A stretch of 34,534 bases of DNA, from assembly GCA_016234115.1 (NCBI GenBank), contig JACRHD010000013.1:1-34534 (forward strand), given 5' to 3'. The translations under genes and the position numbers were made by a program. The notes beneath the pieces were generated by a model. That model was not told the DNA's origin, ran no database searches, and saw nothing but the letters and a program-made list of their open reading frames with translations. Of the stretch, positions 17,468 through 34,105 are shown piece by piece. Every line of letters begins with the position of its first letter. Position 1 is the first letter of the stretch. Source of the DNA: Nitrospirota bacterium. Lineage in GTDB: Bacteria > Nitrospirota > Thermodesulfovibrionia > UBA6902.

Positions 17468-19306
17468 ATGAAGAAAAAAATAATCATCGTCGTAAGCATC
17501 TTTTCCCTGCTTTTCTCCCTTGGCGGCGTATATATAATCGTCTCTATTGAGAAAACGACCTCGGACCTTGAAAAACTAATCATGCTCCATCAGGTGGAAA
17601 TACTGAGGGAGCACCTGCTGATACAGATCAAGCGAGTACAGTCCGACCTCAGCATCAGGCACACACGCTACGCAAAGGGGTTCAACACGGTTGTGACCGA
17701 TGTAACAATCATGAAGAGGGCGGCCGAATCCTGTTTTAGCTGCCATCATGCCGACGGCACAAGGGAAAGGCTCAAAGACCTGGAAGACCAGATCCACAAT
17801 TACAGAGACGCCCTGAGCAGGGTGACGACCATAAGGGCCAACGCCGAGAGACTGAAGTCGGAAGAAGACAACGCCTACATCATGGGAGAGAAGCTGATTG
17901 AGAGCGTAAAGGACATGATGGCCATGGCGGGCAGCAGGCTCGAGGAAAAGACCCAGCATGCCCTGACCGAAATAAACGCGACAAAAAGGATACTTTTCGT
18001 GCTCATTATATCCGGGCCCTTCATCGCGACAATACTGATGGTGATTTTTGTAAAGGGTTTCACGAAACCGATACAACTTCTTCTGGACGCGACAAAAACG
18101 CTGAAGGAAGGCGATATGGATTACAGGATCGTGGGGCTGAAAGATGAATTCGGGGTCCTGGCTTCATCCTTTAATGAGATGGCGGGGTCCCTGAAAGAAC
18201 AGATGTACAGGGTGGAGGAAAGTGAAAAGAGGTACAGGATGCTCTTTGAGAGCGCCAGAGACGCCATATTCATCATGGAGGCCGAGGGCAGAAACGCCGG
18301 AAAGATCGTGGCGGCCAATGAGGCGGCGGCGGCGATGCACGGATACACAGTGGATGAATTATTGACGATGCATATAGGAGACCTCGACACGCCGGACATC
18401 GCCAAAGACATCCCTGACAGGATAAGAAGGATCGTTAACGGGGAATGGATCAAGGATGAAATCACGCACCTCAGGAAAGACGGGACTATTTTCCCGGTTG
18501 AAATAAGCGCGGGCCTCCTTGAGCTGTCGGACCATAAATATGTCCTCGCTATCGACAGGGACGTTACCGAACGCAAGCAGGCGGAGGAGCAGTTGCTCCG
18601 CACTGAACAGATGGTAGTATGCGGAGAGGTGGCGACCGGCCTGGCCCATGAAATCAAGAACCCCCTCGCGGGCATCAAGGCGTCTATAGAATTGTTCTCC
18701 GGGATATCCACGCTTCCTGAAGACGACAGGAACATCCTGCAGAAGGTCATTGGTGAAATAAAGCGTATCGAATTATTGCTCAAGGGCATCCTTAATTACG
18801 CCAAACCGCCCAAGCCCGACTTCAGCTCGGTAGATATAAACAGTCTCCTGGATACGGCCCTCACCTTCTCTCTTAACCCTTCGTTCGCGGCCCGCAATTC
18901 AAGGGCGGCGATACAGGTCGTGAAGGACTTTGATGATCTCCTGCCGCAGATCATAGCCGACCCCATGCAATTGAGCCAGGTATTTCTAAACCTGTTTCTG
19001 AACGCGGTCGAGTCCATGAACAACGGCGGCACATTGACTGTAAAAACATCGTATAATACAACAAGGAATTCGATATGGATAAACATATCCGATACAGGCA
19101 AGGGTATAGAAAGTGAATTGATGAACCAGATATTCAATCCTTTCTTCACCACCAAATCCAAAGGGACCGGGCTCGGACTGCCTATCACCAAACGGCTGAT
19201 AGAACAGCACGGCGGCGTTCTGGCCTGTGAAAACAATCCGTCCGGAGGAGCAACATTTACGATCAGTCTTCCGGTCAAACAAAAGGAAAAGGCGTTATCG
19301 GCATGA
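17468..19306 (+). CDS. sensor histidine kinase with periplasmic c-type heme motif
   Basis: A 612-residue transmembrane kinase. Order: TM1 about 4-26, periplasmic helical sensor about 27-172, TM2 about 174-196, HAMP 197-250, PAS about 253-370, HisKA with phospho-acceptor His-394 in HEIKNPL, and HATPase_c about 490-605 with the N box LNAVESM, DTGKGI and GTGLGLPIT. The notable feature is ESCFSCHHADG: Cys-89, Cys-92 and His-93 form a CXXCH site in the periplasmic domain, so one covalent heme c is likely and the kinase may sense redox state, oxygen or NO. Preceded by the PhnD-like lipoprotein and overlapping the response regulator start by 4 bases (ATGA), so the three proteins very probably form one pathway. 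Confidence 0.93.
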   Translation: MKKKIIIVVSIFSLLFSLGGVYIIVSIEKTTSDLEKLIMLHQVEILREHLLIQIKRVQSDLSIRHTRYAKGFNTVVTDVTIMKRAAESCFSCHHADGTRERLKDLEDQIHNYRDALSRVTTIRANAERLKSEEDNAYIMGEKLIESVKDMMAMAGSRLEEKTQHALTEINATKRILFVLIISGPFIATILMVIFVKGFTKPIQLLLDATKTLKEGDMDYRIVGLKDEFGVLASSFNEMAGSLKEQMYRVEESEKRYRMLFESARDAIFIMEAEGRNAGKIVAANEAAAAMHGYTVDELLTMHIGDLDTPDIAKDIPDRIRRIVNGEWIKDEITHLRKDGTIFPVEISAGLLELSDHKYVLAIDRDVTERKQAEEQLLRTEQMVVCGEVATGLAHEIKNPLAGIKASIELFSGISTLPEDDRNILQKVIGEIKRIELLLKGILNYAKPPKPDFSSVDINSLLDTALTFSLNPSFAARNSRAAIQVVKDFDDLLPQIIADPMQLSQVFLNLFLNAVESMNNGGTLTVKTSYNTTRNSIWINISDTGKGIESELMNQIFNPFFTTKSKGTGLGLPITKRLIEQHGGVLACENNPSGGATFTISLPVKQKEKALSA

Positions 19307-20697
19307 CCGGCAAAAAGAAAATTTTTCTTATAGACGATGATGAGCTGATTGTCACCGTACTGAGCAAGGCATTGCAGGGCGAAGGATACGAAGTGCAGTC
19401 CGAGACCACCTCCTTCAAAAATATTACCGACAAAATCGGGGCCTATTTCCCTGACGCGGTGCTGCTCGACAACAAACTCTCCGGCATGAGCGGTCTGGAC
19501 ATCCTCAAAGAGGTAAAGCAGAGCGGGATAGACTCGCCGGTAATAATGCTGACCGCCGACGACACGGCGGAGACGGCCGTGAAGGCGATGAAATTAGGGG
19601 CCGCGGACTATCTTACCAAGCCCTTCAATATAGAGGAGATGAAGATCGTCATAAGCAATATCATCGAGAAAAAAGCGCTCCGGCAGGAAGTCGATCTCCT
19701 GCGCAGGATCAGCAGCGAGCTCTTTGACGAAAATATCATAGGGGAATCCGGCGTCGTAATGGAGTTGAAAAACAAGATAAAGAAGATAGCCGAGGCGCAG
19801 GTATCAAGCATATTAATCACGGGGGAAAGCGGCACCGGCAAAGAACTCTTTTCAAGGTACATCCACCGCCTGATGTACGGAGACGGCAAGTCCAGGAGCA
19901 AACCCTTTGTCGCCATCAATTGCGCGGCGCTGCCGGAGCATCTGATGGAGAGCGAGCTGTTCGGACATGAAAAGGGCGCATTCACCGACGCCAGGACTGA
20001 AAAGAAAGGGGTCTTCGAACTGGCAAACGGAGGCACCATCCTCCTTGACGAGATAGGGGAAATGAAACCCGCTCTTCAGAGCAAATTATTGAGGGTCCTC
20101 GAGGAAAGGTCCATAAGGCGCATCGGCGGCAAATGGGACATGCAGGTGGACGTTACCGTCATAGCCACCACGAACAGGAACCTCTCCGAGGCCGTCAAAA
20201 CAGGCGAATTCAGGACGGACCTCTTTTTCAGGCTGAGCACTTTTTATCTCCATATTCCCCCGCTCAGAGAGAGGAAAGACGACATACCGTTGCTGGCCCG
20301 CCACTTTCTCTCGCATTACACCACGCGGTACAACAAAAAGGCGATCAAGGCCTTTGATTCGCAGGCTGAAAGGCTTCTGGTTTCCTATAACTGGCCGGGC
20401 AACATCAGGGAGCTTAAAAACCTCGTTGAAAGGCTTGTCGTGCTCGAGAATTCCGAAGAGCTCCTCCCGGAACACCTGCCGAACTGGCTGACGGGCGCAT
20501 CCGCGGGCCGGACCGCTCCGGCCGCTGATAGAGGGTTTGTCCTCCCTGAAGAAGGCATTTCTCTGGATGATGTGGAAAAAGACCTTTTTATACAGGCCCT
20601 GAAAAAGGCGGATTATAACAAGGTGACGGCTGCGAAGCTCCTCGGCATCAGCTATGACTCATTCAGATACGGCATCAAGAAGTACGGTTTAAAGTAG
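19303..20697 (+). CDS. sigma-54-dependent response regulator (NtrC/AtoC type)
   Basis: A 464-residue transcription activator. The receiver domain (about 5-120) has acidic pocket DDD (11-13) and phospho-acceptor Asp-56 in LLDNKLSG. The AAA+ domain has Walker A GESGTGKE, the sigma-54 contact loop GAFTDA (a frequent variant of GAFTGA), Walker B LLDEIGEM, and the R-finger region ending in YNWPGNIRELKN. A Fis-type helix-turn-helix closes the protein (NKVTAAKLLGISYDSFRYGI). It would open sigma-54 promoters when phosphorylated by the linked kinase. The cytochrome promoter at 31074-31088 is an obvious candidate target; that link is inference. Confidence 0.95.
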   Translation: MTGKKKIFLIDDDELIVTVLSKALQGEGYEVQSETTSFKNITDKIGAYFPDAVLLDNKLSGMSGLDILKEVKQSGIDSPVIMLTADDTAETAVKAMKLGAADYLTKPFNIEEMKIVISNIIEKKALRQEVDLLRRISSELFDENIIGESGVVMELKNKIKKIAEAQVSSILITGESGTGKELFSRYIHRLMYGDGKSRSKPFVAINCAALPEHLMESELFGHEKGAFTDARTEKKGVFELANGGTILLDEIGEMKPALQSKLLRVLEERSIRRIGGKWDMQVDVTVIATTNRNLSEAVKTGEFRTDLFFRLSTFYLHIPPLRERKDDIPLLARHFLSHYTTRYNKKAIKAFDSQAERLLVSYNWPGNIRELKNLVERLVVLENSEELLPEHLPNWLTGASAGRTAPAADRGFVLPEEGISLDDVEKDLFIQALKKADYNKVTAAKLLGISYDSFRYGIKKYGLK

Positions 20698-20710
20698 GGG
20701 CGACCCCTAC
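20694..20710. terminator. hairpin shared by converging genes
   Basis: GTAGGGG (20694-20700), CGA, CCCCTAC (20704-20710) form a perfect 7-bp stem that contains the stop codons of both converging regulator genes. No T-run on either side. It may act as a bidirectional mRNA end or be a fragment of a dispersed GGGGCGACCCC repeat. Confidence 0.5.
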
Positions 20711-21375
20711 ACAAACTCGATCCCTGCCCTGTAGGTATTGTAGTCGACCATTGAAATCCATTTGACGATGCCTGCCTTCCGGTCCAGTCCTTCGATAGCG
20801 ATCTTCTGGCCGGCATGAAGTGAATAGTCCGTCATGATGCCCATTCCCCCGTCGCTGATGTCGACCATATCTCCCTGCAGGTTCATTATCTTCGCATCGT
20901 GTTCCGCGGCTTTTATGGAATACTCAAAGCCCCCTTTGAGCAGACGCCTCTCGTGCCTTCTTTTGGACCGCCGCCTGTCCATATTCGCAGAAATTCCGGA
21001 CGGGGCGTCTTTCTCCAGGACATGCTTCAGAATGAACTTTACCTGGTAAAAATCGAAAGGCTTGGATATGAACTGGTAGGCCAACTCCTCCACTTTTTTC
21101 TTGCACTCGTCATTAAGCTCATCGGCCGTCATGATTATGACCTCGGTGTCCGGCGAAATCTCTTTTATTTTTTTCATGACCTCCAGGCCGTTGGTGTCAG
21201 GCAGATTTACATCGAGGAAACAGACGTCGTAAAAATTTGAGGACACCTCATGGGCGACGTCAGTGCCGTTATCGAGGCTCTTGATCTCCACGGGACAATT
21301 ACAGATAGCGGGAATATGTTTTGACAGCCCCCATCGGACCAGACTGTCGTCATCAACTATCATTATACGTTTCAT
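20707..21375 (-). CDS. response regulator with PilZ (c-di-GMP-binding) output domain
   Basis: A 222-residue REC-PilZ protein. The receiver starts MKRIMIVDDDSLVRWG, with the acidic pocket at 8-10, phospho-acceptor Asp-55 in FLDVNLPD, IIMTADE and the conserved Lys in SKPF. From about 128 the PilZ domain shows the Arg-rich c-di-GMP motif (RRRSKRRHERR) and DISDGGMG, matching the D/NxSxxG signature. Such proteins couple a two-component signal and c-di-GMP to motility, exopolysaccharide or gene output. I start at the ATG at 21375 because the upstream 19 codons do not belong to the receiver fold. It converges on the sigma-54 regulator and points away from the cytochrome genes. Confidence 0.92.
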   Translation of the reverse strand: MKRIMIVDDDSLVRWGLSKHIPAICNCPVEIKSLDNGTDVAHEVSSNFYDVCFLDVNLPDTNGLEVMKKIKEISPDTEVIIMTADELNDECKKKVEELAYQFISKPFDFYQVKFILKHVLEKDAPSGISANMDRRRSKRRHERRLLKGGFEYSIKAAEHDAKIMNLQGDMVDISDGGMGIMTDYSLHAGQKIAIEGLDRKAGIVKWISMVDYNTYRAGIEFV

Positions 21376-21390
21376 CTCGTACAAACAAAA

Positions 21391-21405
21391 GCAATTTTTG
21401 TACCA
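21391..21405 (-). promoter_or_regulatory. sigma-54-like promoter before the REC-PilZ gene
   Basis: Minus-strand TGGTACAAAAATTGC has the GG-N10-GC spacing and TTGC element of sigma-54 promoters, with TGGTAC in place of TGGCAC. However, its -12 element lies only 15 bases before the ATG, so the transcript would begin about four bases before the start codon without a ribosome site. Treat as a match whose function is doubtful. Confidence 0.3.
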
Positions 21406-21621
21406 TTTAATTCTTAAGGGCGTTGTAACCACGCAATTATCATAGAGATATGAGAGGAGATCAGAACAAATCCCTGTCCCGAATTTATCCTAACTCCTCT
21501 TTTTCATGGAGAGGAATCGTTCAGGGCAATCAGTTATTGCGGCGTTGTTTTCAACGGGCGACACTAAGGACAACGGTTTCACAGGTCCTGAAACTGCCTC
21601 GGGGGAAATTCGGTTTCCGGT

Positions 21622-21649
21622 AAAATAACCAGAGGGAAATGGTGGTTTT
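21622..21649 (-). terminator. weak terminator after the 12-heme gene
   Basis: On the minus strand AAAACCA, an 11-base loop and TGGTTATTTT lie about 12 bases past the stop of the cytochrome gene. The stem is short and only partly GC. The rest of the gap (21376-21621) shows a small CGTTG/CAACG hairpin near 21547 and nothing else recognisable. Confidence 0.35.
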
Positions 21650-21660
21650 CCCAAAACGTT

Positions 21661-23439
21661 TTATGGATAGCTCTCGTTGACGTGTGTCCTGCCGTGGCAG
21701 ACAAGGGTGCAGCTTCCTGAAAAAGCGCCCGTATCGGTGAAGATGGGAAATTGGTTCCCGGGCGCAGGGAAGACTGTCCTCGTGTCGAAGTTCATCAGGT
21801 TCGTGTGGCTTCCTGAAACTCCATCGTCCCGGATGCCGTGGGGGTCATGGCACACGGAACACGGGGCGGTCCTGTCCACAATATGCTCCAGATGCCTGTT
21901 AAAGCTCTGGTCCCCTAAAATGCTCGTCCTGTCGTGGCAAGTGTAGCACAGGGCATAATTCTGAAAGCTCTCAGGAGTATTGTCCGTAGTCAGATATTGC
22001 GCCCTTAATATCGGGGCATAATTGGAACCGTGAGGGCCTCCCGATACGCCTCCGTCGTCTCTGTGACAGGCCGTGCAATAGATAATGCTCGACTCCGAAA
22101 GGCCGGGTTCATAGGTGGAAGGGATGCTCGGCACATCGGGATTGCGTCCCATCCCGATCACAGGGTGATATGAGGGGTTTGACAGGGCGAAGTCCACGCG
22201 GGTATTCGTGCTGTCGACGACCCTCGGGATGAAGAATATCTCGGGCGCAAGGTCGGCGTGGCACTTGAAGCATACCTCATATTCATGCAAAGCCGGGTTC
22301 GCTTCCGCACGGTTCGCATCAACGCCGCTGACATTTTCGAGTCTCCCCGATATATGGGGCGCGGCAGCGGACCTGTTATTTGCCGCATGAGGGTTGTGGC
22401 AATCAGCGCACTCGACGTGCCTGTCGGAGATGAAGGCCGGCTCTTCAGTAGGATCATGGTATTGGGCCGTCATTCCGATCATTGTCGCCTCTACGGGATG
22501 GCGCGAGATCTTCTGAAACTGGGCCTTTATGTTCTTTGACGCTACGGCCCCGTCATGACACAGATAACAATTTCTTTCTTCTTCCTGGTAGTTGAGGAGC
22601 CTCAGGGGCCCGCCCGCGAAGTGCGGTAAATGGCAGCTCTCGCACCCCCATTCGGACACCGAAGTCCACGTGGGCCACGTCCTGGGAGGCATGGGCAGGA
22701 GGCCGTTGACCGCAGCCTGCGACGCAGCGTGGGCGGAGAATGTCCATCCGCTCTTCTGGTGACACGCGATGCAGAGGGCCGAATACCGGTTATTCATATT
22801 GAGAAATTTCCCATAGCTGTCGTTATGAGGGTCATGACACGTGGTGCAGTGCATCTCGGCGTCGAGGCCGCCGAAGACGAGCTCGGGCGGCGGCGTGGGA
22901 TAAAGCTCCGCATTGGGAAGCGCGCTGTAGTACGAAAACGACACAGGGTGATGGACGGAGAGATTTAGCCCCAGGTTGGAAAGTGTCCCGGCCGGCATAG
23001 TCGTGATCCCGCCCTGCATTGCGATTACTCCTCCGGATACCGCGACCGCAGGATTTACGACCGCCCCGAGGGCGAGGGTGCCGTCATGACAACTCAGACA
23101 GAGCTTGGTGGGACCGGTCGGCTGGATCGGTACGGGCGACTTTAATGACGGGCTCGTGTAAAAAGAATAACTCTGGGGTTCAAGCTCTTTGTTCCACAGG
23201 GGAGAGCTGGGCGTAGCATTGTGCGGCGTATGGCAGAAGACGCAAATGCGGCTTTCCGAAAAGGCCTTTATCGGTCCCGGCCCCGAGGCGGACAGGTCGT
23301 GCTTGGTGTTGATGATATTTGTTTGCGCGAGGCCGGATGAAGGAGGCATAAACAGGCACACGCCCAGGAAGAGCGCCATGGCAAAGCGTATGACAGGTCC
23401 TATGCGGTCCCGGCTGAATTCAGAATTTCCCATCATCAT
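21661..23439 (-). CDS. 12-heme-type c cytochrome (11 CXXCH plus one CX3CH)
   Basis: A 592-residue secreted multiheme protein with a signal peptide (hydrophobic 16-34, SSGLAQ). It has eleven CXXCH sites: CVFCH, CLSCH, CTTCH, CIACH, CESCH, CYLCH, CADCH, CFKCH, CTACH, CYTCH and CSVCH. Near the C-terminus SCTLVCHGRTH is a CX3CH site. Many are followed by an extra His (CHDPHN, CHTPHN), the doubled-CXXCH style that gives bis-His hemes. Residues about 45-230 resemble the whole tetraheme protein at 30069-30941. Its start overlaps the NHL gene by 20 bases, so translation is coupled. Likely an outer-membrane or extracellular electron carrier; location is inferred. Confidence 0.93.
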   Translation of the reverse strand: MMMGNSEFSRDRIGPVIRFAMALFLGVCLFMPPSSGLAQTNIINTKHDLSASGPGPIKAFSESRICVFCHTPHNATPSSPLWNKELEPQSYSFYTSPSLKSPVPIQPTGPTKLCLSCHDGTLALGAVVNPAVAVSGGVIAMQGGITTMPAGTLSNLGLNLSVHHPVSFSYYSALPNAELYPTPPPELVFGGLDAEMHCTTCHDPHNDSYGKFLNMNNRYSALCIACHQKSGWTFSAHAASQAAVNGLLPMPPRTWPTWTSVSEWGCESCHLPHFAGGPLRLLNYQEEERNCYLCHDGAVASKNIKAQFQKISRHPVEATMIGMTAQYHDPTEEPAFISDRHVECADCHNPHAANNRSAAAPHISGRLENVSGVDANRAEANPALHEYEVCFKCHADLAPEIFFIPRVVDSTNTRVDFALSNPSYHPVIGMGRNPDVPSIPSTYEPGLSESSIIYCTACHRDDGGVSGGPHGSNYAPILRAQYLTTDNTPESFQNYALCYTCHDRTSILGDQSFNRHLEHIVDRTAPCSVCHDPHGIRDDGVSGSHTNLMNFDTRTVFPAPGNQFPIFTDTGAFSGSCTLVCHGRTHVNESYP

Positions 23440-24496
23440 ACTGTTCGGTAATCCGGTAAACCTGCACTCTCCGGTTATAAGTGTCGGCTACATATAATAT
23501 ATCAGTGTCGTCGATAAATATGCCAGAAGGAAGCCAGAATTCGGCGAAATCGCCCCCCCTTTTTCCTACAGTGAGGAGAAAATCCCCCTGTCGGCTGAAG
23601 AGTTGAATATTGTCGAAGAAGCTGTCGACGACATAGATAGCGCCGTCCTTGTCCACTGCCACGCCTTTAGGCATCGCAAAATCTCCGGAGCCGTCTCCAT
23701 GCCTTCCGAATGAGTTTATAAAGCCGCCGTTCTCGTTGAAGGCCGCTATCCTGAAATTCATTGTGTCCGTCACATACAGCACGCCCGTCCGGGACCAGAA
23801 GATATGGGTGGGGAGGTTCAATTGCCCTTCAAGGTCTCCTCTCTGCCCGAAGGACAAAACAGCCTCGCCCTTTTTGTTGAAGGCATATATCCTGTTTTCG
23901 GGGGTGTCCGCAACGTAGAGGATTTCTTTGCGGCTGTTATACGCAAGACCCGTGGGTCTCTTCAGTCTGCCCGAGCCTGTTTCGAAAATGGAAAACAGAA
24001 ACTCGCCCTGACTGTCGAAGACAGCCACCTTGCCGGCCGTCGAGTCCGACACGTAGAGCCTGAGGTCCTCATCGAACGCCGCGCCCACCGGCGACCTCAA
24101 TGGTTCGGGTCCGGCATCGAAGATCCTGACATATTTTTGCTCTTCCGGAATAAACAGGTGAACGCACTTGCAGCCTATGTCAGCAACCGCGAGGCGGCCG
24201 TCCGGTCCGGTCGTAACGGCAATCGGCAGGATGAAAGAGTCGTCGTCGCCCCCGCCTTTGCCGTAAACAGCGATGCTTAACACGTCCCCGGCAGAGCTGC
24301 TGCGCGCAAAACCCTTCACGGTCATGAGATATGTTACCTTCGCCTCGTTGGGCTGGTACGGCCACTGAAGGTTTATATCAGGGCCCTCCGTACGGAGCGC
24401 CCATTTTGAGGCGCAGCCCGTACTCAGGAAAATAATAAGCGCAGCCATTATCAAGGGCCGGCAGCGTATCCCCTTATATAATCTTTTGTCTTTCAT
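23420..24496 (-). CDS. NHL-repeat beta-propeller lipoprotein (second copy)
   Basis: A 358-residue lipoprotein with lipobox LSTGC (Cys-28). After the linker it consists of NHL-type propeller blades with the recurring pattern of L-P-x-G-[IV]-A-V-D followed by Y-V-[AV]-D-[ST]: ILPIAVTTGPDGRLAVADIG, RSPVGAAFDEDLRLYVSDST, KRPTGLAYNS, LNLPTHIFWS with LYVTDTMNFRIAAF, AMPKGVAVDKDGAIYVVDSF, and WLPSGIFIDDTDILYVADTY. About six blades. Such proteins often accompany multiheme cytochromes as scaffolds, but the exact role is unknown. Related to the NHL protein at 28354-29565. Confidence 0.9.
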   Translation of the reverse strand: MKDKRLYKGIRCRPLIMAALIIFLSTGCASKWALRTEGPDINLQWPYQPNEAKVTYLMTVKGFARSSSAGDVLSIAVYGKGGGDDDSFILPIAVTTGPDGRLAVADIGCKCVHLFIPEEQKYVRIFDAGPEPLRSPVGAAFDEDLRLYVSDSTAGKVAVFDSQGEFLFSIFETGSGRLKRPTGLAYNSRKEILYVADTPENRIYAFNKKGEAVLSFGQRGDLEGQLNLPTHIFWSRTGVLYVTDTMNFRIAAFNENGGFINSFGRHGDGSGDFAMPKGVAVDKDGAIYVVDSFFDNIQLFSRQGDFLLTVGKRGGDFAEFWLPSGIFIDDTDILYVADTYNRRVQVYRITEQYDDGKF

Positions 24497-24552
24497 ATGT
24501 CACTTTACAGATAGTCCATAGTAGTCACTTTCCCTCAACTACTTACTGCTGA
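24497..24552. repeat. TACTTACTGCTGACTACT-type word repeat
   Basis: The short gap between the isomerase and NHL genes contains GTCCATAGTAGTCACTT and CTACTTACTGCTGACTACTT, resembling words seen at 29832-29908 and 34349-34384. No hairpin with a T-run is present, so readthrough in the operon is possible. Confidence 0.4.
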
Positions 24553-25545
24553 CTACTTAATCTTTTCCGCCTCTATTATCTCTATCTTCGCATCTTTTCT
24601 CAATGCGTCCTCCCACTCGCGCAGTCTCTTCTTACGGGCCTCGGTCCGGAGCTTGTTTAAGATCACTCCCCTGACTTCCTCGAAAGCAAACTGCTTCTCC
24701 GGCGTGTACTCCTTCAGTTTGATGATGTGAAGGCTGTCGCCAGTCTTGATTACCCCGGAGATGTCTCCCGGTTTCATTTTTCTCGCCTCCTCGCAAAGCT
24801 CGGCGTCTCTGTCTTTCCTGAGCTCCGCGTCGTGCGCGATAAACGTGCCGTCAGTCGCTATCTTAAAGGGGTCCCGGTCACCTTCTTCAAGCAATTTTTT
24901 TAAAATTTCCCCGGCCTTCGCAACCGAACCGGCGTCTTCGGGCTCCAGAAAAAAGACGACGTCGGTGACCGTTATTTTTTCCTGCCTGAGGAATTTCTCT
25001 TTTTCGTAAACGCTCCTTATCTCGTCTTCGGATACGACGACTTTATCGACTACCTCCTTCATAAAGACCCTGTTCAGGATGATGCCCCTTTCCGTTTCAG
25101 CGCGAAAATCTTCTTCAGTCGTCGCCTCTTTTTCGAGCAACTTCCTGAAGATGAAGTCGCCTCCCATTCTCTCCTTCAATCTCTCAACCCGTTTGTCCAC
25201 TTCGGAAGGGTCGATCTTCATACCGCCGGCCCGGGCGCTCTGGTAAGCCAGTTCCTCTGTCACGACCCTGTCGAGGGCCTCTTTTCTAACGGCCTCCGCG
25301 CTCTCCACGACATCAGGCCCCTTCGAGGCCCTGACACGGTCCATCATCTCAAGGACGGCCTTGAGCGTAATATCTCTTCCGTTTACCCTCGCTGCAACGG
25401 TCTTTCCGGCGTCCTGACCAGGTCCTTCGGCAACACCTTGCCCGGCCTGCTCCTGTGACGGTCCCCCGCCGCTCTCACCGGCCATCGCCGGACATGACAG
25501 GCATATCCCTATCAATGAAAGCATAATGCAAACTGCTTTTATCAT
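24553..25545 (-). CDS. SurA/PpiC-type periplasmic peptidyl-prolyl isomerase
   Basis: A 330-residue periplasmic folding factor. It has a signal peptide MIKAVCIMLSLIGICLSCPA, a Gly/Gln-rich linker, a SurA-like N-terminal helical domain (VARVNGRDITLKAVLEMMDR and EALDRVVTEELAYQSARAGG), then a parvulin/rotamase domain about 190-300 (KITVTDVVFFLEPED, MKPGDISGVIKTGDSLHIIK) and a final helix. The ATG at 25545 has a strong ribosome site GGAGGAGAG. The parvulin active-site residues are not easy to place, so chaperone activity may dominate. Its place between a beta-barrel gene and a multiheme cytochrome gene suggests help in folding those exported proteins. Confidence 0.88.
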   Translation of the reverse strand: MIKAVCIMLSLIGICLSCPAMAGESGGGPSQEQAGQGVAEGPGQDAGKTVAARVNGRDITLKAVLEMMDRVRASKGPDVVESAEAVRKEALDRVVTEELAYQSARAGGMKIDPSEVDKRVERLKERMGGDFIFRKLLEKEATTEEDFRAETERGIILNRVFMKEVVDKVVVSEDEIRSVYEKEKFLRQEKITVTDVVFFLEPEDAGSVAKAGEILKKLLEEGDRDPFKIATDGTFIAHDAELRKDRDAELCEEARKMKPGDISGVIKTGDSLHIIKLKEYTPEKQFAFEEVRGVILNKLRTEARKKRLREWEDALRKDAKIEIIEAEKIK

Positions 25546-25646
25546 CTCTCCTCCTATCGAGAGTATACAAGAAGACAACTCCTCATCTTCTTTCTCTGTG
25601 TTACCTGTGGTTTATTTTTATAGTAAGAAATCTGTCCGCGAAGGGA

Positions 25647-27686
25647 CTAAAATAATTGCCTCTTTACGTTTAAATAATAATACTGATGTATCTTTTTTGT
25701 TTCTCCGGCCTGGGAGGCTGCCGTCGATTTGCTCTGAGAGCTGGATGCGCTCGCTCCCAGGCTCACTATCAGCTTGCCGACCCTCCAGACGAGGTTCGAA
25801 TTGAGTGAGTATATTGAAGCCTCTACCAGACCCCTTGTATCGGCATAAGCCGCGCCCGCGGAGAGCAGGAGGCTCTTTTCAGGTATCCTCTTCTGGACGG
25901 CGGCGGAAAGGGTAGAGGTCTTGACTGAATACCCCTGTCCGTTTACTTCGGACGTGCCCTCGGGATAAGTTGTGATCACATACGATGCCGCCGCATTGCC
26001 CGTGGCGGTCTCACTGAAACTGTGAACGTATTCCACCTCGTTTCTCCACGCCCAGTACGGCGAAACGTTTGAGCTGACTTTCTGATACTCTGTAAGAACA
26101 GTGACAGGCTCTTTCTCGACAACCACGCCTACGGTATGCGACTTGGAATCGATAGGCTCCCCCGGGAAGGTCCCTGAGAGCACCGAGGATTTCATCCTTA
26201 CAAACCTGTAATAGGGATTTACCATGTTATTCATCAGATTTGACCCGAGATTGTATCCGGCAGAGTCCGTCCGGAGTCTGAGTTTCTCCGAAATCAGGGA
26301 ATAGGTGACGAGGAACTCGAAGGTCCCGTCTGTGGCGGAGCCGGCCGGAAGGACGTCGGCGATAATGATGTCCGTGATCTGGAAGGTATTGCCGAAAGGC
26401 GCTACCCGGAAGTTTATGCCCTCCACGAGGGGAATGAGCTCCGACGGCGGCAGCGGCGACCGCAGAAAGACCCTGATGGTGGCCTGGTCCGCGCCCTGAG
26501 AATTGAGGAGGAAGGCGCCGGGCACCGGGAGCTCCACGGGGTGGGGCTCATTGACGATGTCCGTCGCTCCCGAGGTATCCATTACAGTCCTGCTGAGGCT
26601 GACCCCGGCCGTCAATTTACCGCTGGGAATCAGCTTTGTATAGTTTGTCGCAATTGAATGAGTTGCGCCGTCGGAATCGCTGCCCGAAGATTCGGTCATA
26701 ATGCGCTTATACGAGTACGAGTTGTTCAGACTCCGGTAGAGCCTGTGCAGGAGGCCCGCCTCGAACGTGTTGGTAGTGCTTAAAAACGTGGTCCCGACGG
26801 CCCCGGGGGCGCCGGACGTGAACGTATTTTCGAGATAAGAATATGAGCTCCCCACGTCGAAGTTCAGCGGAAGCGAGACGTCAACGCGTTCGGACCACGA
26901 AAACTGTTCACTTTCAAGGGAGGCGGAAGGACTTTTCTGGCTGAACGTGTTCTGGGACAAACGGAGGCCCGTGCTTGCATTATGCGTTTTGACCAGGGTC
27001 CCTAAAGAATATACATCCGAGTCGCCGTCAAGCGATAACGATGAGTTGAAATCCGAATGGTTATACATCATGTCCGTTGAAAACAGGTTTCCCACGCTGT
27101 CCTGTTCGTAGTAGGTGCCGCTTACTATGAAATTCGTCACCTCGGAAGTGCTCCCTGTGGACTCAAGGGTGTTTTCCGTATAACTCGAACTGAAAAAGAC
27201 CGGCCTCTTCCGGTAACGGAACAGCGCCCCTTCGGTGGTAGATTCGCTGCGGGAGCGCCCCTGTTTCAGCAGGGGTTCGGAGCGGCGGGCGAACAGTTCA
27301 AGATTATAGGGATGCTCGGGCAGCAGAATCATGGTGCCGGAATACATGATAGTGCCGATGTTCTTCCAGCCGTCGTCGGCCCTGGAGGAGGTGCTTATAC
27401 TTTCATGCCTGAGGCCGCTTGAAATTGAAAGTGTATACATAATAAACCTGGGGTGATAGACGAACCCCTCCGAAATAAGGGTCAATCTCTCCCTCAGAAT
27501 GGTGTCCGTCAGCTCCAAATCGTTTGCGCCCCCCTTTCCACTCTCTTTCTCAACAGAGGTGAACAGTTCCAGGTCCCCCCTGTTTTCAACCGGCCTCGGG
27601 ATGAACCTCTTCCAGTCGGCAGATGCGGAAACAGGGATTGCCGTCAGGGTCGCGGTCAGGATGATGATTATAGCAATATGTTTCAT
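25647..27686 (-). CDS. large outer-membrane beta-barrel protein, candidate electron-conduit porin
   Basis: A 679-residue protein starting MKHIAIIIILTATLTAIPVSASA (signal peptide), followed by a region about 25-90 and then a long run of alternating amphipathic strands, rich in Ser, Thr, Tyr and Leu (for example FIVSGTYYEQDSVGNLFSTD, LTAGVSLSRTVMD, SLLLSAGAAYAD). It ends VKRQLF, with the C-terminal Phe of BamA-recognised barrels. Near the middle (about 385-470) a globular insert has the pattern ATIRVFLRSPLPPSELIPLV. No close named family is recognised. Flanked by the pentaheme and isomerase genes, it fits the porin partner of a porin-cytochrome conduit. A longer GTG start at 27737 is possible. 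Confidence 0.75.
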   Translation of the reverse strand: MKHIAIIIILTATLTAIPVSASADWKRFIPRPVENRGDLELFTSVEKESGKGGANDLELTDTILRERLTLISEGFVYHPRFIMYTLSISSGLRHESISTSSRADDGWKNIGTIMYSGTMILLPEHPYNLELFARRSEPLLKQGRSRSESTTEGALFRYRKRPVFFSSSYTENTLESTGSTSEVTNFIVSGTYYEQDSVGNLFSTDMMYNHSDFNSSLSLDGDSDVYSLGTLVKTHNASTGLRLSQNTFSQKSPSASLESEQFSWSERVDVSLPLNFDVGSSYSYLENTFTSGAPGAVGTTFLSTTNTFEAGLLHRLYRSLNNSYSYKRIMTESSGSDSDGATHSIATNYTKLIPSGKLTAGVSLSRTVMDTSGATDIVNEPHPVELPVPGAFLLNSQGADQATIRVFLRSPLPPSELIPLVEGINFRVAPFGNTFQITDIIIADVLPAGSATDGTFEFLVTYSLISEKLRLRTDSAGYNLGSNLMNNMVNPYYRFVRMKSSVLSGTFPGEPIDSKSHTVGVVVEKEPVTVLTEYQKVSSNVSPYWAWRNEVEYVHSFSETATGNAAASYVITTYPEGTSEVNGQGYSVKTSTLSAAVQKRIPEKSLLLSAGAAYADTRGLVEASIYSLNSNLVWRVGKLIVSLGASASSSQSKSTAASQAGETKKIHQYYYLNVKRQLF

Positions 27687-27767
27687 AATGGAATAAAGGA
27701 GTCGGAATACGGTTTGAATACGCTGTTTCCATTCCACATTCTGACACCTGAATTATGTATTCTGTCT

Positions 27768-28295
27768 TCACTTAAGCAAGTATCTTCTGTCGGACATATG
27801 CGCATTGTGACAGGAGGTGCAATCCGTGTCAACGTCTTTATGCGCTTCATTACGGGCTATGGCCTTCTCATCGTGGCAATGGAGGCAAAATTCTTCCGAC
27901 TTTGAGACAAGGAGATATCGCTGCCTGGAACTGTGCGGGTCATGGCATACCCTGCACCCGCCCGAGGCAAGGGGACCATGTATCCATTGCTTGTCCATGC
28001 GGAATTCGTGGCACCTGACGCAGAGCTCCTCGATTGAGGCGACGAACCTGTTGGTGCCCTGTATATGGCACCCGTTGCACATTTTTGCGGCATATGGACC
28101 GTGCTGATAACTGGTCCTCTTTTTTACGCCTGCCTCCCCGGCGTCCCCCTTTTGTACCTTCGCGACCCTTTCTTCCTCAGGGTCGGGCACGCCGTCGAAG
28201 AAGAAACTGAGGACCCTGTATCGTGTCGTTGCCTCGCAGCCGTACAGCAGCGCCGCCGTCAAAATGATGGTCAGGAATATTGTAGACTTCTTCAT
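27768..28295 (-). CDS. pentaheme c-type cytochrome lipoprotein
   Basis: A 175-residue lipoprotein with lipobox LLYGC (Cys-20). Five CXXCH sites: C73 (CNGCH), C92 (CVRCH), C114 (CRVCH), C137 (CLHCH) and C159 (CTSCH). Extra His residues after the third and fifth (CHDPH, CHNAH) fit the doubled-CXXCH family with bis-His hemes. Start chosen at the ATG at 28295 because the upstream 52 codons lack a signal peptide and overlap the preceding gene; GGGAAG precedes the ATG. It lies directly before the barrel gene, so it may be the periplasm-facing or barrel-inserted cytochrome. That placement is inference. Confidence 0.9.
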   Translation of the reverse strand: MKKSTIFLTIILTAALLYGCEATTRYRVLSFFFDGVPDPEEERVAKVQKGDAGEAGVKKRTSYQHGPYAAKMCNGCHIQGTNRFVASIEELCVRCHEFRMDKQWIHGPLASGGCRVCHDPHSSRQRYLLVSKSEEFCLHCHDEKAIARNEAHKDVDTDCTSCHNAHMSDRRYLLK

Positions 28296-28353
28296 TGCTT
28301 CCCTTGCGCCCATCTTTGAAAAAAGAGGTGTCAGGGGAGAGGAAGCTTCCCGC

Positions 28354-29565
28354 TCACTTCTCTTCCGGCTTCCCTGTATTCCCGGCGGCGTCGCCTGTTT
28401 CACCGGGCGCTCCGGGCTCTTCCTTTGTTCCGGACTTTTTCTGCATTTCATCCCATTCCCTCTGCCGTTTTTCCTCGAGCTCGTTCAGGAGCACATCTTC
28501 AGAGGGATACGTCTTCCCTTTTTCCTTCCCGAAGCCGAGGACGTTCACCAGGCGTTCCCCGAACTGGCTCGTTACCAGGACCAGGTATTCGAGCTCGAAG
28601 TCGGGCTTCGCATACTTCTGAAAGTACTCCAGATTGTCATAGTCAATGGTGACCTTTGCCGGGAGGAGGAAATCGCCGGGATTGCGCCCGCCCTGTCCGA
28701 AAAAGAGGAGTATCCTGCCGTGCTTGCTGAATATCTGCACGTTCTGAAAACCGGCGTCAACCGCATAAAGCCGGCTTTCCCTGTCAAGGGCGACGCCTCT
28801 GGGCCTCGAAAAATGTCCCAGGTTATTCCCCAGCTTTCCGTACACGGCGATAAAGTGTCCGTCCCTGTCGAACTTTACGACCTGGACCCTCCCCGCGTCG
28901 GCGACATAGACATATCCGTCACGGTCAACAGCCACATTGGTGGGCATGGAAAGCAGCGCCATGGGGTCTTCCCCGGAATTTCCGATACTCTTGACCATCT
29001 TGCCCGATTTTTTTTCAAAGATCCTGACCGCGCCGTTCATAATGTCGGCGACATAGACCCTGTCTTCGAATGCCGCGGCGTCTACCGGCTTCCAGACCCC
29101 GGGGCTCCCGTATGCCGTCAGGTACTCATCGTTTTTATCAAAGACGACCACCTGTCCCCTGATCGGGTCCGTAACATACTTGGTGCCGTCCTCTTCGATG
29201 CTGATGTTAAGCGGCTGAATGAGCTTGCCGGGGCCCCTCACCCCCTTGAGGGTTTCGTATTTCTTTGCCTTCAGATCAAAGACGATCACTGTATCATTGG
29301 TGTCGCAGACGTAGATCTTTCCGTCATAAATCCCCACTCCGTAGGGCTTGTCCAGTTTCCTGTGCCGCTTCGCCCCGATTACGAAATCGTCAAAAGCTGA
29401 ATCTTCCTCGATGTCATGCGAACCTGAAAAGGAAGTGAGATACTGGAGGCGTGGGAGCTCAGGCGGCGAAGGGAAAAATACCGTCTCGTCCTTTTTTGGG
29501 GGCGCCGCGCACCCCACGATAATAAGCAGACACATTGCGTATGCAATGTATTTTACTCTCTTCAT
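28354..29565 (-). CDS. NHL-repeat beta-propeller lipoprotein (first copy)
   Basis: A 403-residue lipoprotein with lipobox IVGC (Cys-19) and about six NHL blades: DKPYGVGIYDGKIYVCDTND, IQPLNISIEEDGTKYVTDPI, KPVDAAAFEDRVYVADIMNG, SMPTNVAVDRDGYVYVADAG, SRPRGVALDRESRLYAVDAG and a final blade. A charged C-terminal tail (about 360-403, EEKRQREWDEMQKK, then Gly/Glu-rich) follows. It is the first gene of the minus-strand cytochrome run and has a good ribosome site (GGAGAG). A 378-codon open frame on the opposite strand is only a shadow. Function unknown; blade order and context match the other NHL lipoprotein. Confidence 0.9.
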   Translation of the reverse strand: MKRVKYIAYAMCLLIIVGCAAPPKKDETVFFPSPPELPRLQYLTSFSGSHDIEEDSAFDDFVIGAKRHRKLDKPYGVGIYDGKIYVCDTNDTVIVFDLKAKKYETLKGVRGPGKLIQPLNISIEEDGTKYVTDPIRGQVVVFDKNDEYLTAYGSPGVWKPVDAAAFEDRVYVADIMNGAVRIFEKKSGKMVKSIGNSGEDPMALLSMPTNVAVDRDGYVYVADAGRVQVVKFDRDGHFIAVYGKLGNNLGHFSRPRGVALDRESRLYAVDAGFQNVQIFSKHGRILLFFGQGGRNPGDFLLPAKVTIDYDNLEYFQKYAKPDFELEYLVLVTSQFGERLVNVLGFGKEKGKTYPSEDVLLNELEEKRQREWDEMQKKSGTKEEPGAPGETGDAAGNTGKPEEK

Positions 29566-30007: not shown

Positions 30008-30041
30008 AATAAAAGAAGGGGGATGGAATCCATCCCCCTTC
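30008..30041 (-). terminator. intrinsic terminator after the tetraheme gene
   Basis: GAAGGGGGATGG (30015-30026) and CCATCCCCCTTC (30030-30041) form a perfect 12-bp stem with a 3-base loop. On the minus strand it is followed by TTTTATTT. It lies 28 bases past the tetraheme stop and separates that gene from the NHL-cytochrome operon. Confidence 0.92.
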
Positions 30042-30068: not shown

Positions 30069-30941
30069 TTACGGAGTAAAAGAAGTAGGATCGAGGTAAT
30101 TCGGGTCAAGTGAGCCCTTGTCATGACAGGTCAAACAGAGGGCACTTCTGATGTCACTCCTCCAGAGGAGTCTTTCGCCGGAGTTCCCTTTGTTATGGAC
30201 TGAATGACAGGTCCCGCACTCGAGCCTGGCATCTTCACCATAAAGGTGGTCGGCTATGGTGGAGCCGTCCGCTGTCATTTCCGTGCCGGAATCCCTGATG
30301 TACTTGTCCGAGCCCTGTACTGCTTCATAATCGAAGCCGATCGGGTGGTGGTTGCCGAGATAGCCGTCTTTTCCGATCAGGTAGGTCTCGTCATCGATCT
30401 CCAGGTCGCCGTTGCCGATAGAGGAAACAGGCTGCGGAGCGCTGCCGTATGAGTTAACGGCAACAGTGCCGTCATGACAGCTCAGGCAAAGCAGTGAGGT
30501 GCTGCCCGGGGTCATGCCGTTGTCGATTGCCTGGGAGCGCAGGTCGCCTGTAGTGGGCTCGCCGGGGCCGTTAACGTACATCTGATAGGAATCCGCCAGG
30601 CCTGTAACTTCATGGTTCCACAGAGGCAGATAATTGAACTTGTCGGACGGGGCATTAATGCCTGTTCCGACTGCTACTCCGGTAAGCTTCATGGAGTGGT
30701 GCGGGGTATGACAGAAGATACAAATCCTGTCGAGAACGTCCACTGAGCCGGCAGCCCAGTAAGTCATGCCTTTTGCCTGCTGGTTGCTCTTACTCAGATC
30801 ATGGACTGAGCCGTTAATTCCCGCTCCCGGCACGTAGCCGCCAGTCGTCCATGAATCTTCCGGGGTGTATGTGGCCATAGCGCTGGATACGATAAATAAT
30901 CCGAGAGCAAGGCACAATAATACTAAAATATGCTTCTTCAT
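30069..30941 (-). CDS. secreted tetraheme c-type cytochrome
   Basis: A 290-residue exported protein with a signal peptide (MKKHILVLLCLALGLFIVSS, cleavage near AMA). Four CXXCH sites: C74 (CIFCH), C152 (CLSCH), C242 (CGTCH) and C269 (CLTCH). Candidate distal ligands include His-47 in HDLS, the His in CHTPHH, His-198/199 in NHHPIGF and His-249 in CHSVHN. The arrangement HDLS, ICxFCHTPH, LCLSCHDGTVA, HPI/VxF and LCLTCH also forms the N-terminal third of the 12-heme protein at 21661-23439. A strong ribosome site (AAGGAGGA), its own sigma-54 promoter and its own terminator mark it as a separately controlled, probably highly expressed gene. The heme count matches the filament-forming OmcE, but no homology to it was tested. 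Confidence 0.93.
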   Translation of the reverse strand: MKKHILVLLCLALGLFIVSSAMATYTPEDSWTTGGYVPGAGINGSVHDLSKSNQQAKGMTYWAAGSVDVLDRICIFCHTPHHSMKLTGVAVGTGINAPSDKFNYLPLWNHEVTGLADSYQMYVNGPGEPTTGDLRSQAIDNGMTPGSTSLLCLSCHDGTVAVNSYGSAPQPVSSIGNGDLEIDDETYLIGKDGYLGNHHPIGFDYEAVQGSDKYIRDSGTEMTADGSTIADHLYGEDARLECGTCHSVHNKGNSGERLLWRSDIRSALCLTCHDKGSLDPNYLDPTSFTP

Positions 30942-31041
30942 ACGTTACTTCCTCCTTAATTTTGTTTGTTTTTGTTTCTCCGCGCGTCTCAAGACGCACG
31001 CTTTTTTTCGGCGCCTCCGACACCCCCGCATCAAAAGCGCC

Positions 31042-31093
31042 AATTCTGGCAGACTATCTGACAGTTAGCAGTCGCAATTAGCATGCCAGAATT
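31042..31093. repeat. 10-bp inverted repeat enclosing the sigma-54 promoter start region
   Basis: AATTCTGGCA (31042-31051) and TGCCAGAATT (31084-31093) are perfect inverses, 32 bases apart. The right arm contains the -24 GG of the sigma-54 promoter; the left arm falls about 11-20 bases downstream of the expected transcription start. A regulator bound to both arms could cover the promoter. Confidence 0.6.
31074..31088 (-). promoter_or_regulatory. sigma-54 (RpoN) promoter of the tetraheme cytochrome gene
   Basis: Minus-strand TGGCATGCTAATTGC matches the -24/-12 consensus TGGCACG-N4-TTGC at all but one position, with exact GG-N10-GC spacing. The predicted start is near 31062, leaving a 121-base leader that contains GCGTC/GACGC and GGCGC/GCGCC hairpins before the ribosome site. 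Activation would need an enhancer-binding protein such as the regulator at 19303-20697. Confidence 0.8.
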
Positions 31094-31411
31094 TTTATGC
31101 GGGTCTTACCGTATCTCAAATTTCATTCTCCAGCCCTCTAACCATACAGATTTAAAATCATTTTCCGGATTTCAGCGCTTGCCGCCGGACCCACGGGTGC
31201 CGGAATTTCTCCGCACAATTGGTGAAATATCCAAAAGGAACTGGGGAATTTACCATCAGCCCCTCAGCCGGGGAACCGTAATATCTTCCATGTAAAATTT
31301 TTCAACTGTATGGGTGGGGGTTTTCGGGAATTTGCAGGAGGTGACGGTAAGAGAATCAGGGTGACGCAAGGGGCGGGTCTGACAACCCGCCCCTTGCGCC
31401 GGTTCAAGGGT
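31094..31411. other. region upstream of the sigma-54 promoter, with a 14-bp hairpin
   Basis: No gene is visible. CGCAAGGGGCGGGT (31365-31378) and ACCCGCCCCTTGCG (31385-31398) form a perfect 14-bp stem 14 bases past the stop of the 897-residue gene; it lacks a T-run, so it is an mRNA 3' hairpin or weak terminator. The remaining bases 31094-31364 are where enhancer sites for the sigma-54 activator would lie; I could not define a clear tandem site. Confidence 0.5.
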
Positions 31412-34105
31412 TTATGGACTTAACGCAATGATATTAATGCCCGCGCCGCTTGGTCCGACTGTAACCGTAGCAGAAGGAGCGGAAAAGACATAGTTGTACT
31501 TTGTGACCAGGATATCGTATGTCCCTGGTTTGAGATTGCTGACTGTATAGGTCCCGCTCGAATTAGTAGAGACCGTTATTGTCGAGGAGCCCTTTACCGC
31601 CTTCACTGTTGCTGAAGACACGGGGGTCACGCCGTCGGACTTGTATACTTTCCCGGTTATGGTGAAAGTGGCAGGAGTCACTGTCAGCGTCTCAGTGCGG
31701 CTCTGTCCGATGGTATCGACCGCCTCGTGAGTGATGGTCTTCAGGCCCGCGGTCGTATACGTGTGCGTAAATACCGTGCCCTGTGGGCCGCTCTGCTGCG
31801 GACTGCCGTCGCCCCAGTTCGTAATTTTCACGAGAGATACGCCGTTGTCGTCCGTGGAACTGTCAACAATAGTTGCGACCCAGGTATCGGCATTGAGAAC
31901 TACAGGGTTTGAGTGGCTCGCCGTCGGCGGCTCATCGGCCTTGTAGACGGTAACTTTCTTACTCGTTGAGGCCGAGGTCGAATTCCCCGCGTCTATTACG
32001 GTGAGTGTTACAGTATATGTTCCCGCGGCAAGATATGTATGTGAGGCGGTCGCGACCCCGACAAAGGTGTCTTTTGTGCCGTCTCCCCAATTCCATCTGA
32101 ATTCACTGCAGGGATTGCTGCTGTAACACAATGAGGCCGAGGCATTGACCACAAGCGTCAGGCTTATGGGAGGGGAAAAGCCGAAGCTCGGCTGCGGCCA
32201 GTCCTTATGGATGCCTTTGGCCTCTCTTGCCAGAGTGGCCTTGTTCATAGGACCTGTGCCCCACGGCGGGACCTCTGTATACCCGGACCCGCCGCCGCCG
32301 ACATGGCACTGCCCGCATACGAGGTCCACGTCCAGCTTGACCTGATAGTGGGGAAGCATGGCGGCCGACAAATCAGCCCCCTCATGGCATTGCGCGCAGG
32401 AAGCGTGCTGCGCGGGATCATAGATACATGGCGACATCAGGTGGCACGTTCTGCAGGAATCATCCAGCGTGACTCCGCTGTGCATCGCCATGCCGGATGA
32501 CAGGTCCGGCGACGCATGGCACTGTTCACAGGCAGGATTGAGGTCCGCATTATTGGGGTCATACGTACAGGCCTGCTCCACGTGGCACTGCCTGCAAGCC
32601 AGGTCCCACCAGCCGACTGTATTGGCAGTGCGCTGTCCGGCGTCCCACTGCTCCTGCGTGGGGAATGTACTGTAGTTCGCGTTTGTGCTTATCCTGAAGA
32701 TATGCGAAGAGGACGTGCTGCGCTGGTTCAGACTGGGCATATGGCAGAGCTTGCATGCGCAGGCTATGTCCTCGACTGCACAGTTGCCGAGGGGGTCTCC
32801 GTCACCGGGCGCGTGCGTCATCCTGGTCTGAACAGTGATGACCTTGTCGGCATGACATTCCGGGCAGTCCTTCTTAAAAGGCGCCGTTGCATTGACCGCC
32901 TTCACCGTGCTCTGGTGGACGTCATGGCAGGTGGTGCAGCCTGTGCCGACCCCCTCATGCTCAGGGTCTTCATAAGCTGAAAAAGAACTGGTGTATCTCG
33001 ACGGGTCGCCGATTTGCGCGAAATTTCCGGTAAACCCTCCATGCGCCCCGTTCAAAAACTCGTTACCGGTGGAGTACCCGTAAAACTGGAGGGCATAGCC
33101 GCTGTATCCGCCGATCTCGATTGCGGGAAGGGGATAGAGGGGTTCGGATGCCGGCAGGGAGACGTTGTCCGTATACGGAGTAGGCACGATGTTGGCCCCA
33201 AGTCCTCCCCCCGTATACGGCAGGGTATGTTCCTGTCTGTGGCAGTTCATGCATAACGCGGTTGCATCGGCGCCCCTTGTAATAGTGGGGCCGCCGTTCA
33301 TGTGATTTGTGGCGTCATGACACCGTTCACACGTAATCCCGTCCACAGCCCATGAACCTGATATGGCACGACCGTCTCCGTCAGGGTCAAAATCAACTTT
33401 TCCGGTGGTATTGGCCGGGGTCCAGGAAATGCGCGGGAAGCCCGCCTCGGGGCTGCGACTGCCGCTGACCGCCTCGTCCATGGTATAACCGGTTGTGTGG
33501 CAGCGTCCGCATCCGTATGAAACAGCAGTCTTGTTCGAGCCCTGATCATAACCGTCAAAAACAGCTAATGGAGCAGCCGGTTCAAGCATCCATCCGCCGA
33601 GAATATAATAAAGGGACTTCTTGCCTGATATCCATATCCCTCCGCCTGCCGTGCAAACGCTTTGGCTCGCAGTCTCGGAGTTGGAGCAAAAACCGAGAAT
33701 ATCGATTGTATTGTCGGTCCAGTTGATCACGTTGCCGGCTTCATCGGAAATATAGGCCGTCCCCTCGGGCCCCGCGATTTGTATAGGCGGCGTCTGAGCG
33801 CTCCTCAACATATTTTTGTGACCGGTCCTGAGATAGGCTGTCATGTCCGGCACGGGACGATTGAACATGCTGGTGACCCCTGAGTTGTGGCATGTTAAAC
33901 AGGACCCGATCGTGCCTTGCGGGTATATCCACCCTCCGGGCGGCACCGTGGGATTAAGCCTGGAGCCGTCACCCGAGTATATCCGGCCCGCCTGTGACCA
34001 GGCATTCTGTGCAGCCGGTATCAGAAGAATTATGAGTACAAAGAAAATAATCGCCGGCAGAATGGCCTTCGCGACGCGTTCATTTTTATTCCTTTTATTG
34101 ATCAT
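31412..34105 (-). CDS. 12-heme surface cytochrome fused to PKD-like and carboxypeptidase-regulatory-like domains
   Basis: An 897-residue exported protein. A signal anchor/peptide spans about 13-37. Twelve CXXCH sites lie between residue 69 and about 615: CLTCH, CGRCH, CERCH, CMNCH, CTTCH, CPECH, CKLCH, CRQCH, CEQCH, CRTCH, CAQCH and CGQCH. Then come a PKD domain (FRWNWGDGTKDTF, HTYLAAGTYTVTLTV), a second PKD-like domain (ITNWGDGSPQQSG, HTYTTAGLKTITH) and a carboxypeptidase-regulatory-like domain (ITGKVYKSDGVTPVSSATVK, SGTYTVSNLKPGTYDILVT). The beta-sandwich tail suggests cell-surface display or binding to carbohydrate or mineral. Ribosome site GGAGG is 6 bases before the ATG. The tail TVTVGPSGAGINIIALSP resembles that of the partial gene at 34446. 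Confidence 0.93.
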   Translation of the reverse strand: MINKRNKNERVAKAILPAIIFFVLIILLIPAAQNAWSQAGRIYSGDGSRLNPTVPPGGWIYPQGTIGSCLTCHNSGVTSMFNRPVPDMTAYLRTGHKNMLRSAQTPPIQIAGPEGTAYISDEAGNVINWTDNTIDILGFCSNSETASQSVCTAGGGIWISGKKSLYYILGGWMLEPAAPLAVFDGYDQGSNKTAVSYGCGRCHTTGYTMDEAVSGSRSPEAGFPRISWTPANTTGKVDFDPDGDGRAISGSWAVDGITCERCHDATNHMNGGPTITRGADATALCMNCHRQEHTLPYTGGGLGANIVPTPYTDNVSLPASEPLYPLPAIEIGGYSGYALQFYGYSTGNEFLNGAHGGFTGNFAQIGDPSRYTSSFSAYEDPEHEGVGTGCTTCHDVHQSTVKAVNATAPFKKDCPECHADKVITVQTRMTHAPGDGDPLGNCAVEDIACACKLCHMPSLNQRSTSSSHIFRISTNANYSTFPTQEQWDAGQRTANTVGWWDLACRQCHVEQACTYDPNNADLNPACEQCHASPDLSSGMAMHSGVTLDDSCRTCHLMSPCIYDPAQHASCAQCHEGADLSAAMLPHYQVKLDVDLVCGQCHVGGGGSGYTEVPPWGTGPMNKATLAREAKGIHKDWPQPSFGFSPPISLTLVVNASASLCYSSNPCSEFRWNWGDGTKDTFVGVATASHTYLAAGTYTVTLTVIDAGNSTSASTSKKVTVYKADEPPTASHSNPVVLNADTWVATIVDSSTDDNGVSLVKITNWGDGSPQQSGPQGTVFTHTYTTAGLKTITHEAVDTIGQSRTETLTVTPATFTITGKVYKSDGVTPVSSATVKAVKGSSTITVSTNSSGTYTVSNLKPGTYDILVTKYNYVFSAPSATVTVGPSGAGINIIALSP

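Follow-up and report, generated by a model that had tools for sequence, protein, structure and literature searches.

The stretch analysed here, called the window, is 34,534 nucleotides long and represents the whole of contig C61 from a Nitrospirota genome of 3.5 Mb in 69 contigs. Its minus strand carries a gene for an OmcE-like tetraheme c-type cytochrome of 290 amino acids (30069-30941) with four CXXCH motifs, which heads an electron-transfer cluster on the same strand (21661-29565) encoding an NHL propeller, a multiheme protein of 227 amino acids, an outer-membrane-like protein of 696 amino acids, a PPIase, another NHL protein and an 11-heme protein of 592 amino acids. The gene order is identical in two related genomes, G008 (locus L096) and G057 (L097). 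Upstream of the cytochrome (31412-34105) lies a gene for an 897-amino-acid protein with 12 CXXCH motifs and PKD and carboxypeptidase-regulatory-like domains, with a strong hairpin at its 3' end (31365-31398; an 11-pair inverted repeat with no T run). This repeat, at the far end of the interval 31089-31411, was considered as an enhancer but was attributed instead to the 3' end of the 897-amino-acid gene. On the other side of the cluster, a receiver-PilZ (RR/PilZ) protein is encoded on the minus strand (20707-21375; PF00072, 4e-21; PilZ, 0.0005, below the family cut-off), and the genes for a periplasmic binding lipoprotein (16546-17454), a sensor histidine kinase (17468-19306) and a sigma-54 activator (19303-20697) lie in a row on the plus strand. 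A search for related loci gave one useful close relative, L166, labelled 'Nitrospirae bacterium' and obtained from groundwater.

Members of the OmcE family are the builders of bacterial electric nanowires. In the PDB, the window cytochrome matches OmcE of Geobacter sulfurreducens (7tfs_A, E = 6.5e-14) and one further multiheme chain (9yuq_N, E = 6.7e-12). Invariant in eight homologues are the four CXXCH motifs and the distal histidines at positions 47, 81, 199 and 249, and when the protein is aligned to OmcE these histidines are located in the same four motifs; the Nitrospirota protein differs from its Geobacter counterpart in having a longer N-terminal part. In OmcE filaments, a histidine of one subunit ligates the haem of the next (PMC9473688). 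The window protein is an OmcE-like tetraheme cytochrome and probably forms filaments. A literature search, for which most subscription papers were beyond reach, returned no paper in which an OmcE-like gene of this phylum is controlled by sigma-54.

The cytochrome gene is preceded by a sigma-54 -24/-12 promoter, TGGCATGCTAATTGC (31074-31088, minus strand), with a predicted transcription start at 31062, the same position as that given in an earlier note on this DNA. The string occurs once in the window, matches all 11 specified bases of TGGCAYRN4TTGC and has the exact GG-N10-GC spacing that the note had reported. The promoter end and the ATG (at 30941) are 132 nt apart; a ribosome-binding site, AGGAGG, read directly on the minus strand (30951-30956), stands 9 nt before the ATG, and an intrinsic terminator of 12 pairs, eight of them G-C, with a T-rich tail lies 3' of the gene (30015-30041, minus strand), in keeping with the earlier description of a cytochrome with its own ribosome site and terminator. 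The genome encodes RpoN (PF04552, E = 2.4e-61). It also contains 22 exact sigma-54 sites in its 3.5 Mb, and sites with at most one mismatch number 164 against 147 in the control, so that a lone exact site is by itself only suggestive; one-mismatch sites, with counts at the control level, were dropped as evidence. Conservation is more informative: among 30 tetraheme homologues in this class with upstream DNA, the window's own included, 22 have a site matching 11 or 12 of 12 positions upstream, where dinucleotide shuffles give an expectation of 0.33 and the reverse strand, as a control, gives one. At the level of sequence, conservation across homologues thus confirms the promoter assignment.

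On the sensor side, the lipoprotein is of the PhnD/PtxB/AioX type (PF12974, E = 4.9e-62), with matches to the phosphite protein PtxB (6e-29), AioX (4e-16) and ArrX (2.6e-14). The kinase has a periplasmic CXXCHH motif, followed by HAMP, PAS, HisKA and HATPase domains. This motif is kept in every orthologue that reaches the region, although the rest of the periplasmic part is fast-changing, and its conservation suggests a covalently attached haem and hence redox or gas sensing; it is from this haem motif that we infer redox control. The sCache_heme domain (PF11845) is absent from the Pfam matches of the kinase at E 0.001. In the AioX-AioS-AioR system, the kinase is triggered by the binding protein, and an RpoN promoter is the target of the regulator (PMC5908839); the layout in the window resembles this system because the CXXCHH kinase follows a PtxB/AioX-like binding protein. 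Like AioXSR and ArxXSR, the window has X, S and R genes in a row, an X component of the PtxB/AioX type and an AtoC-type regulator with an RpoN promoter, but it differs from them in the CXXCHH of its kinase and in its target, which is a cytochrome and not an adjoining molybdoenzyme. No arsenic molybdoenzyme next door was recognised in the window's list of open reading frames. At another locus, G004:C34 (L139:1477-10637), two PhnD-like genes lie near one kinase-activator pair, and the X component is seemingly duplicated.

The activator is of the NtrC/AtoC type and has all three expected parts, namely a receiver (PF00072), an AAA+ sigma-54-interaction domain (Sigma54_activat, PF00158, E = 3.3e-64) and a Fis-type helix-turn-helix (HTH_8, PF02954). 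Orthologues in other genomes are 58-84% identical, with 84% identity in G008, where the cluster is syntenic. The sigma-54-contact motif reads GAFTDA instead of GAFTGA, a variant unique to this protein among the 27 activators read in the genome, while the orthologues read have GAFTDA or GSFTDA. The NorR mutant G266D, with an aspartate at the second glycine of GAFTGA, still activates sigma-54 and escapes control by its sensor domain (PMC2941729). The variant in the window is compatible with function, since NorR with the same change is active, and it may point to a different mode of control; G266D is a laboratory escape mutant, whereas the GAFTDA of the window is natural and conserved. The activator and its kinase lie about 10.4 kb from the cytochrome promoter, which agrees with the earlier note's placement of a sigma-54 response regulator and kinase about 10 kb away. 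With 33 clear sigma-54 activators in the genome, and four weak matches besides, a chance neighbour is likely and nearness alone is weak evidence for a regulator; we therefore rejected proximity as an argument.

The connection comes instead from a shared sequence upstream of the target genes. In the window and in G008, the upstream regions of the cytochrome and RR/PilZ genes have a sequence in common, from which a motif was derived. A first guess, GGNNATTTYACC, had 31 matches in the genome and was too loose, and a 14-base palindrome, TGGTKATTTYACCA, which is seen in full (14/14) beside activator orthologues of other genomes, was used instead; the motif was first spotted in part in the window, and its extension to 14 bases and its pairing at 22 bp were derived from those other genomes. 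Upstream of the cytochrome promoter, half A, TGGATATTTCACCA (31220-31233, minus strand), matches 13 of 14 bases and lies some 160 bp before the predicted start, and half B, TGGGGAATTTACCA (31242-31255, plus strand), 22 bp from it, matches 12. A predicted enhancer for an activator, as is characteristic of a sigma-54-dependent promoter, is thereby placed at 31220-31255. The same arrangement recurs before the RR/PilZ gene, our proposed second target, where half A, TGGTTATTTTACCG (21618-21631, minus strand, 13/14), and half B, TGGTGGTTTTCCCA (21640-21653, plus strand, 12/14), are again 22 bp apart and a second sigma-54 site, TGGTACAAAAATTGCT (21390-21405, minus strand, 11/12), occupies the same place as in G008 (L096:9872); the start predicted from this second promoter leaves only some 4 nt ahead of the likeliest ATG.

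None of the halves in the window is perfect, and these four positions (31220, 31242, 21618 and 21640) are the only matches of at least 12/14 in its 34.5 kb, forming two 22-bp pairs, one ahead of each sigma-54 site. With permuted motifs, the window gave 0.64 matches at 12/14 and 0.03 at 13/14. Across the genome there are eight sites with at most one mismatch, and a 22-bp partner together with a downstream sigma-54 site is found for the window's two only. The enhancer motif, TGGTKATTTYACCA, differs from the published ArxR-like gtaacaattcaagc.

In 101 related genomes, we found 26 perfect motif sites. The intragenic ones almost never have a partner, and most of the intergenic ones are paired at 22 bp and lie some 80-110 bp ahead of sigma-54 promoters, the target being mostly a 4-heme gene, in many cases accompanied by a divergent sigma-54 RR/PilZ gene (both in G002, G004, G005, G009 and G042; the 4-heme gene only in G045). 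The 22-bp pairing is present in G050, G053, G042, G004, G002, G009 and G005; the paired gene is a truncated multiheme open reading frame in G050 and an 8-heme gene in G053, and the pair in G041 is spaced at 24 bp. An exception is G009:C26, where the site precedes a non-haem gene. No sigma-54 site was found in range of the motif in G009:C10, G002:C80b, G005:C220, G100:C25 or at one G041 site, the G008 cytochrome has no clear 22-bp partner, and no clear motif copy was seen in five genomes with activators of 58-76% identity (G003, G015, G018, G036 and G044). For many of the sites counted here, an activator orthologue was seen alongside; G041, G045 and G005:C187 are not among these. Because the enhancer pair is common to the window promoters and to loci beside activator orthologues, the link between activator and cytochrome, which the earlier note had proposed, gains computational support, and the cytochrome gene is very probably switched on by the kinase-activator pair 10 kb away. 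The note had mentioned neither the relationship to OmcE nor the enhancer, the RR/PilZ target, the CXXCHH motif, the binding-protein gene or the GAFTDA variant.

We propose a circuit in which the binding lipoprotein and the kinase, with its periplasmic c-type haem motif, would sense a respiratory signal, and the kinase would phosphorylate the NtrC-type activator (19303-20697). The activator is expected to bind the paired near-palindromes (31220-31255, 22-bp spacing) and, by looping to sigma-54 RNA polymerase at 31074-31088, to open the promoter, giving a transcript that would start near 31062 and mostly end at the terminator (30015-30041). The RR/PilZ gene would also be switched on by this activator, by way of the paired sites at 21618-21653 and the promoter at 21390-21405. 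For this circuit as a whole, from binding protein and kinase through activator and paired enhancer to a self-contained sigma-54 cytochrome unit, with RR/PilZ as a further target, we estimate a probability of roughly 80%.

The cytochrome might have a true sigma-54 promoter that is run by another of the 33 activators, with the window activator serving other genes. With so many clear activators in 3.5 Mb, one would be expected by chance within 10-15 kb of about a quarter of all positions, and a second OmcE-like gene, on contig C59, has an adjoining activator and kinase of its own. However, the enhancer pair is common to loci beside orthologues of the window activator, the C59 cluster is without the motif, and the C-terminal helix-turn-helix of the window activator scores 146-220 to its orthologues and at best 97 to the other activators read in the genome, so that none of these has a similar DNA-binding end; we regard control by a different activator as improbable. 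Even less can be said for the idea that the -24/-12 match arose by chance and that transcription of the cytochrome gene depends on a promoter of the sigma-70 or another type. About seven exact sites would be expected in the genome at uniform composition, by our own estimate, against the 22 seen, and a sigma-70-like site matching 9 of 12 positions is present at 31119-31091, but sigma-70-like sites in the region are about as frequent as in shuffled sequence (3 against 2.1), the upstream distance of the enhancer is normal and the retention of the site in 22 of 30 homologues makes coincidence highly implausible.

The remaining alternatives leave the sigma-54 switch in place and concern its input and its reach. 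If the kinase were without haem, the signal would be solely the ligand of the PtxB/AioX-like protein and the circuit would not be redox-controlled. XSR systems do sense oxyanions via a binding protein (PMC5908839), and the best structural match of the lipoprotein is a phosphite-binding protein; against this stands the CXXCHH preserved in a periplasmic part that otherwise changes fast, and we consider a haem-free sensor possible, if the less probable of the two. Somewhat less likely still is that, through a leaky terminator, transcription from the sigma-54 promoter covers the entire downstream cluster and not the cytochrome alone: all genes from 29565 to 21661 are on the same strand and their order is conserved behind the promoter, yet the terminator has 12 pairs and similar hairpins lie 3' of the orthologous cytochrome genes in G008 and G057.

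In Geobacter sulfurreducens, the RpoN regulon likewise combines sigma-54 promoters (TTGGCACGGTTTTTGCT) with electron-transfer cytochromes (PMC2725144), whereas here a specific pairing of an activator with a cytochrome through a defined enhancer is proposed. In two other genomes, G002 and G009, the tetraheme gene of the regulon is followed by an ArrA-related molybdoenzyme (L149:1974-4715 and L150:1700-4762), at 639 and 604 bits far below the ArrA cut-off of 1600. It seems to us an even bet that the c-haem kinase, the binding protein and the GAFTDA activator together make up a redox or acceptor switch dedicated to a nanowire-type cytochrome of Nitrospirota, and that this switch, with its paired enhancer, remains linked to the OmcE-like gene while the respiratory genes around it vary, from the outer-membrane cluster here to the ArrA-related molybdoenzyme in G002 and G009. 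When bacteria produce cytochrome nanowires is largely an open question. Because a single 15-kb stretch gives every element of the circuit to the base, from promoter and enhancer to activator, kinase and target, the circuit could be rebuilt in a laboratory strain, and other uncultured Nitrospirota can be searched for this switch with the enhancer as the query.

Other loci carry related arrangements. The tetraheme gene on C59 (G000:C59, L092:9534-14802) has an exact sigma-54 site, is divergent from a pentaheme gene that has a site of its own, and adjoins a kinase with one CXXCH and a GAFSGA-type activator, which suggests a parallel circuit with a different enhancer. An exact sigma-54 site lies upstream of a gene for a 1695-amino-acid protein with 32 CXXCH motifs (G000:C21, L094:384-7583), with an activator adjoining, and another precedes an ammonium-transporter-like gene (G000:C49:23399, L011), which fits the expected nitrogen control. 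In a clade in which the DNA-binding helix of the activator is changed (G026 and G036), TGGTC..GACCA palindromes are found near sigma-54 sites (L145:17479, L145:1308 and L144:9931), a lead towards a possible co-change of activator helix and enhancer site.
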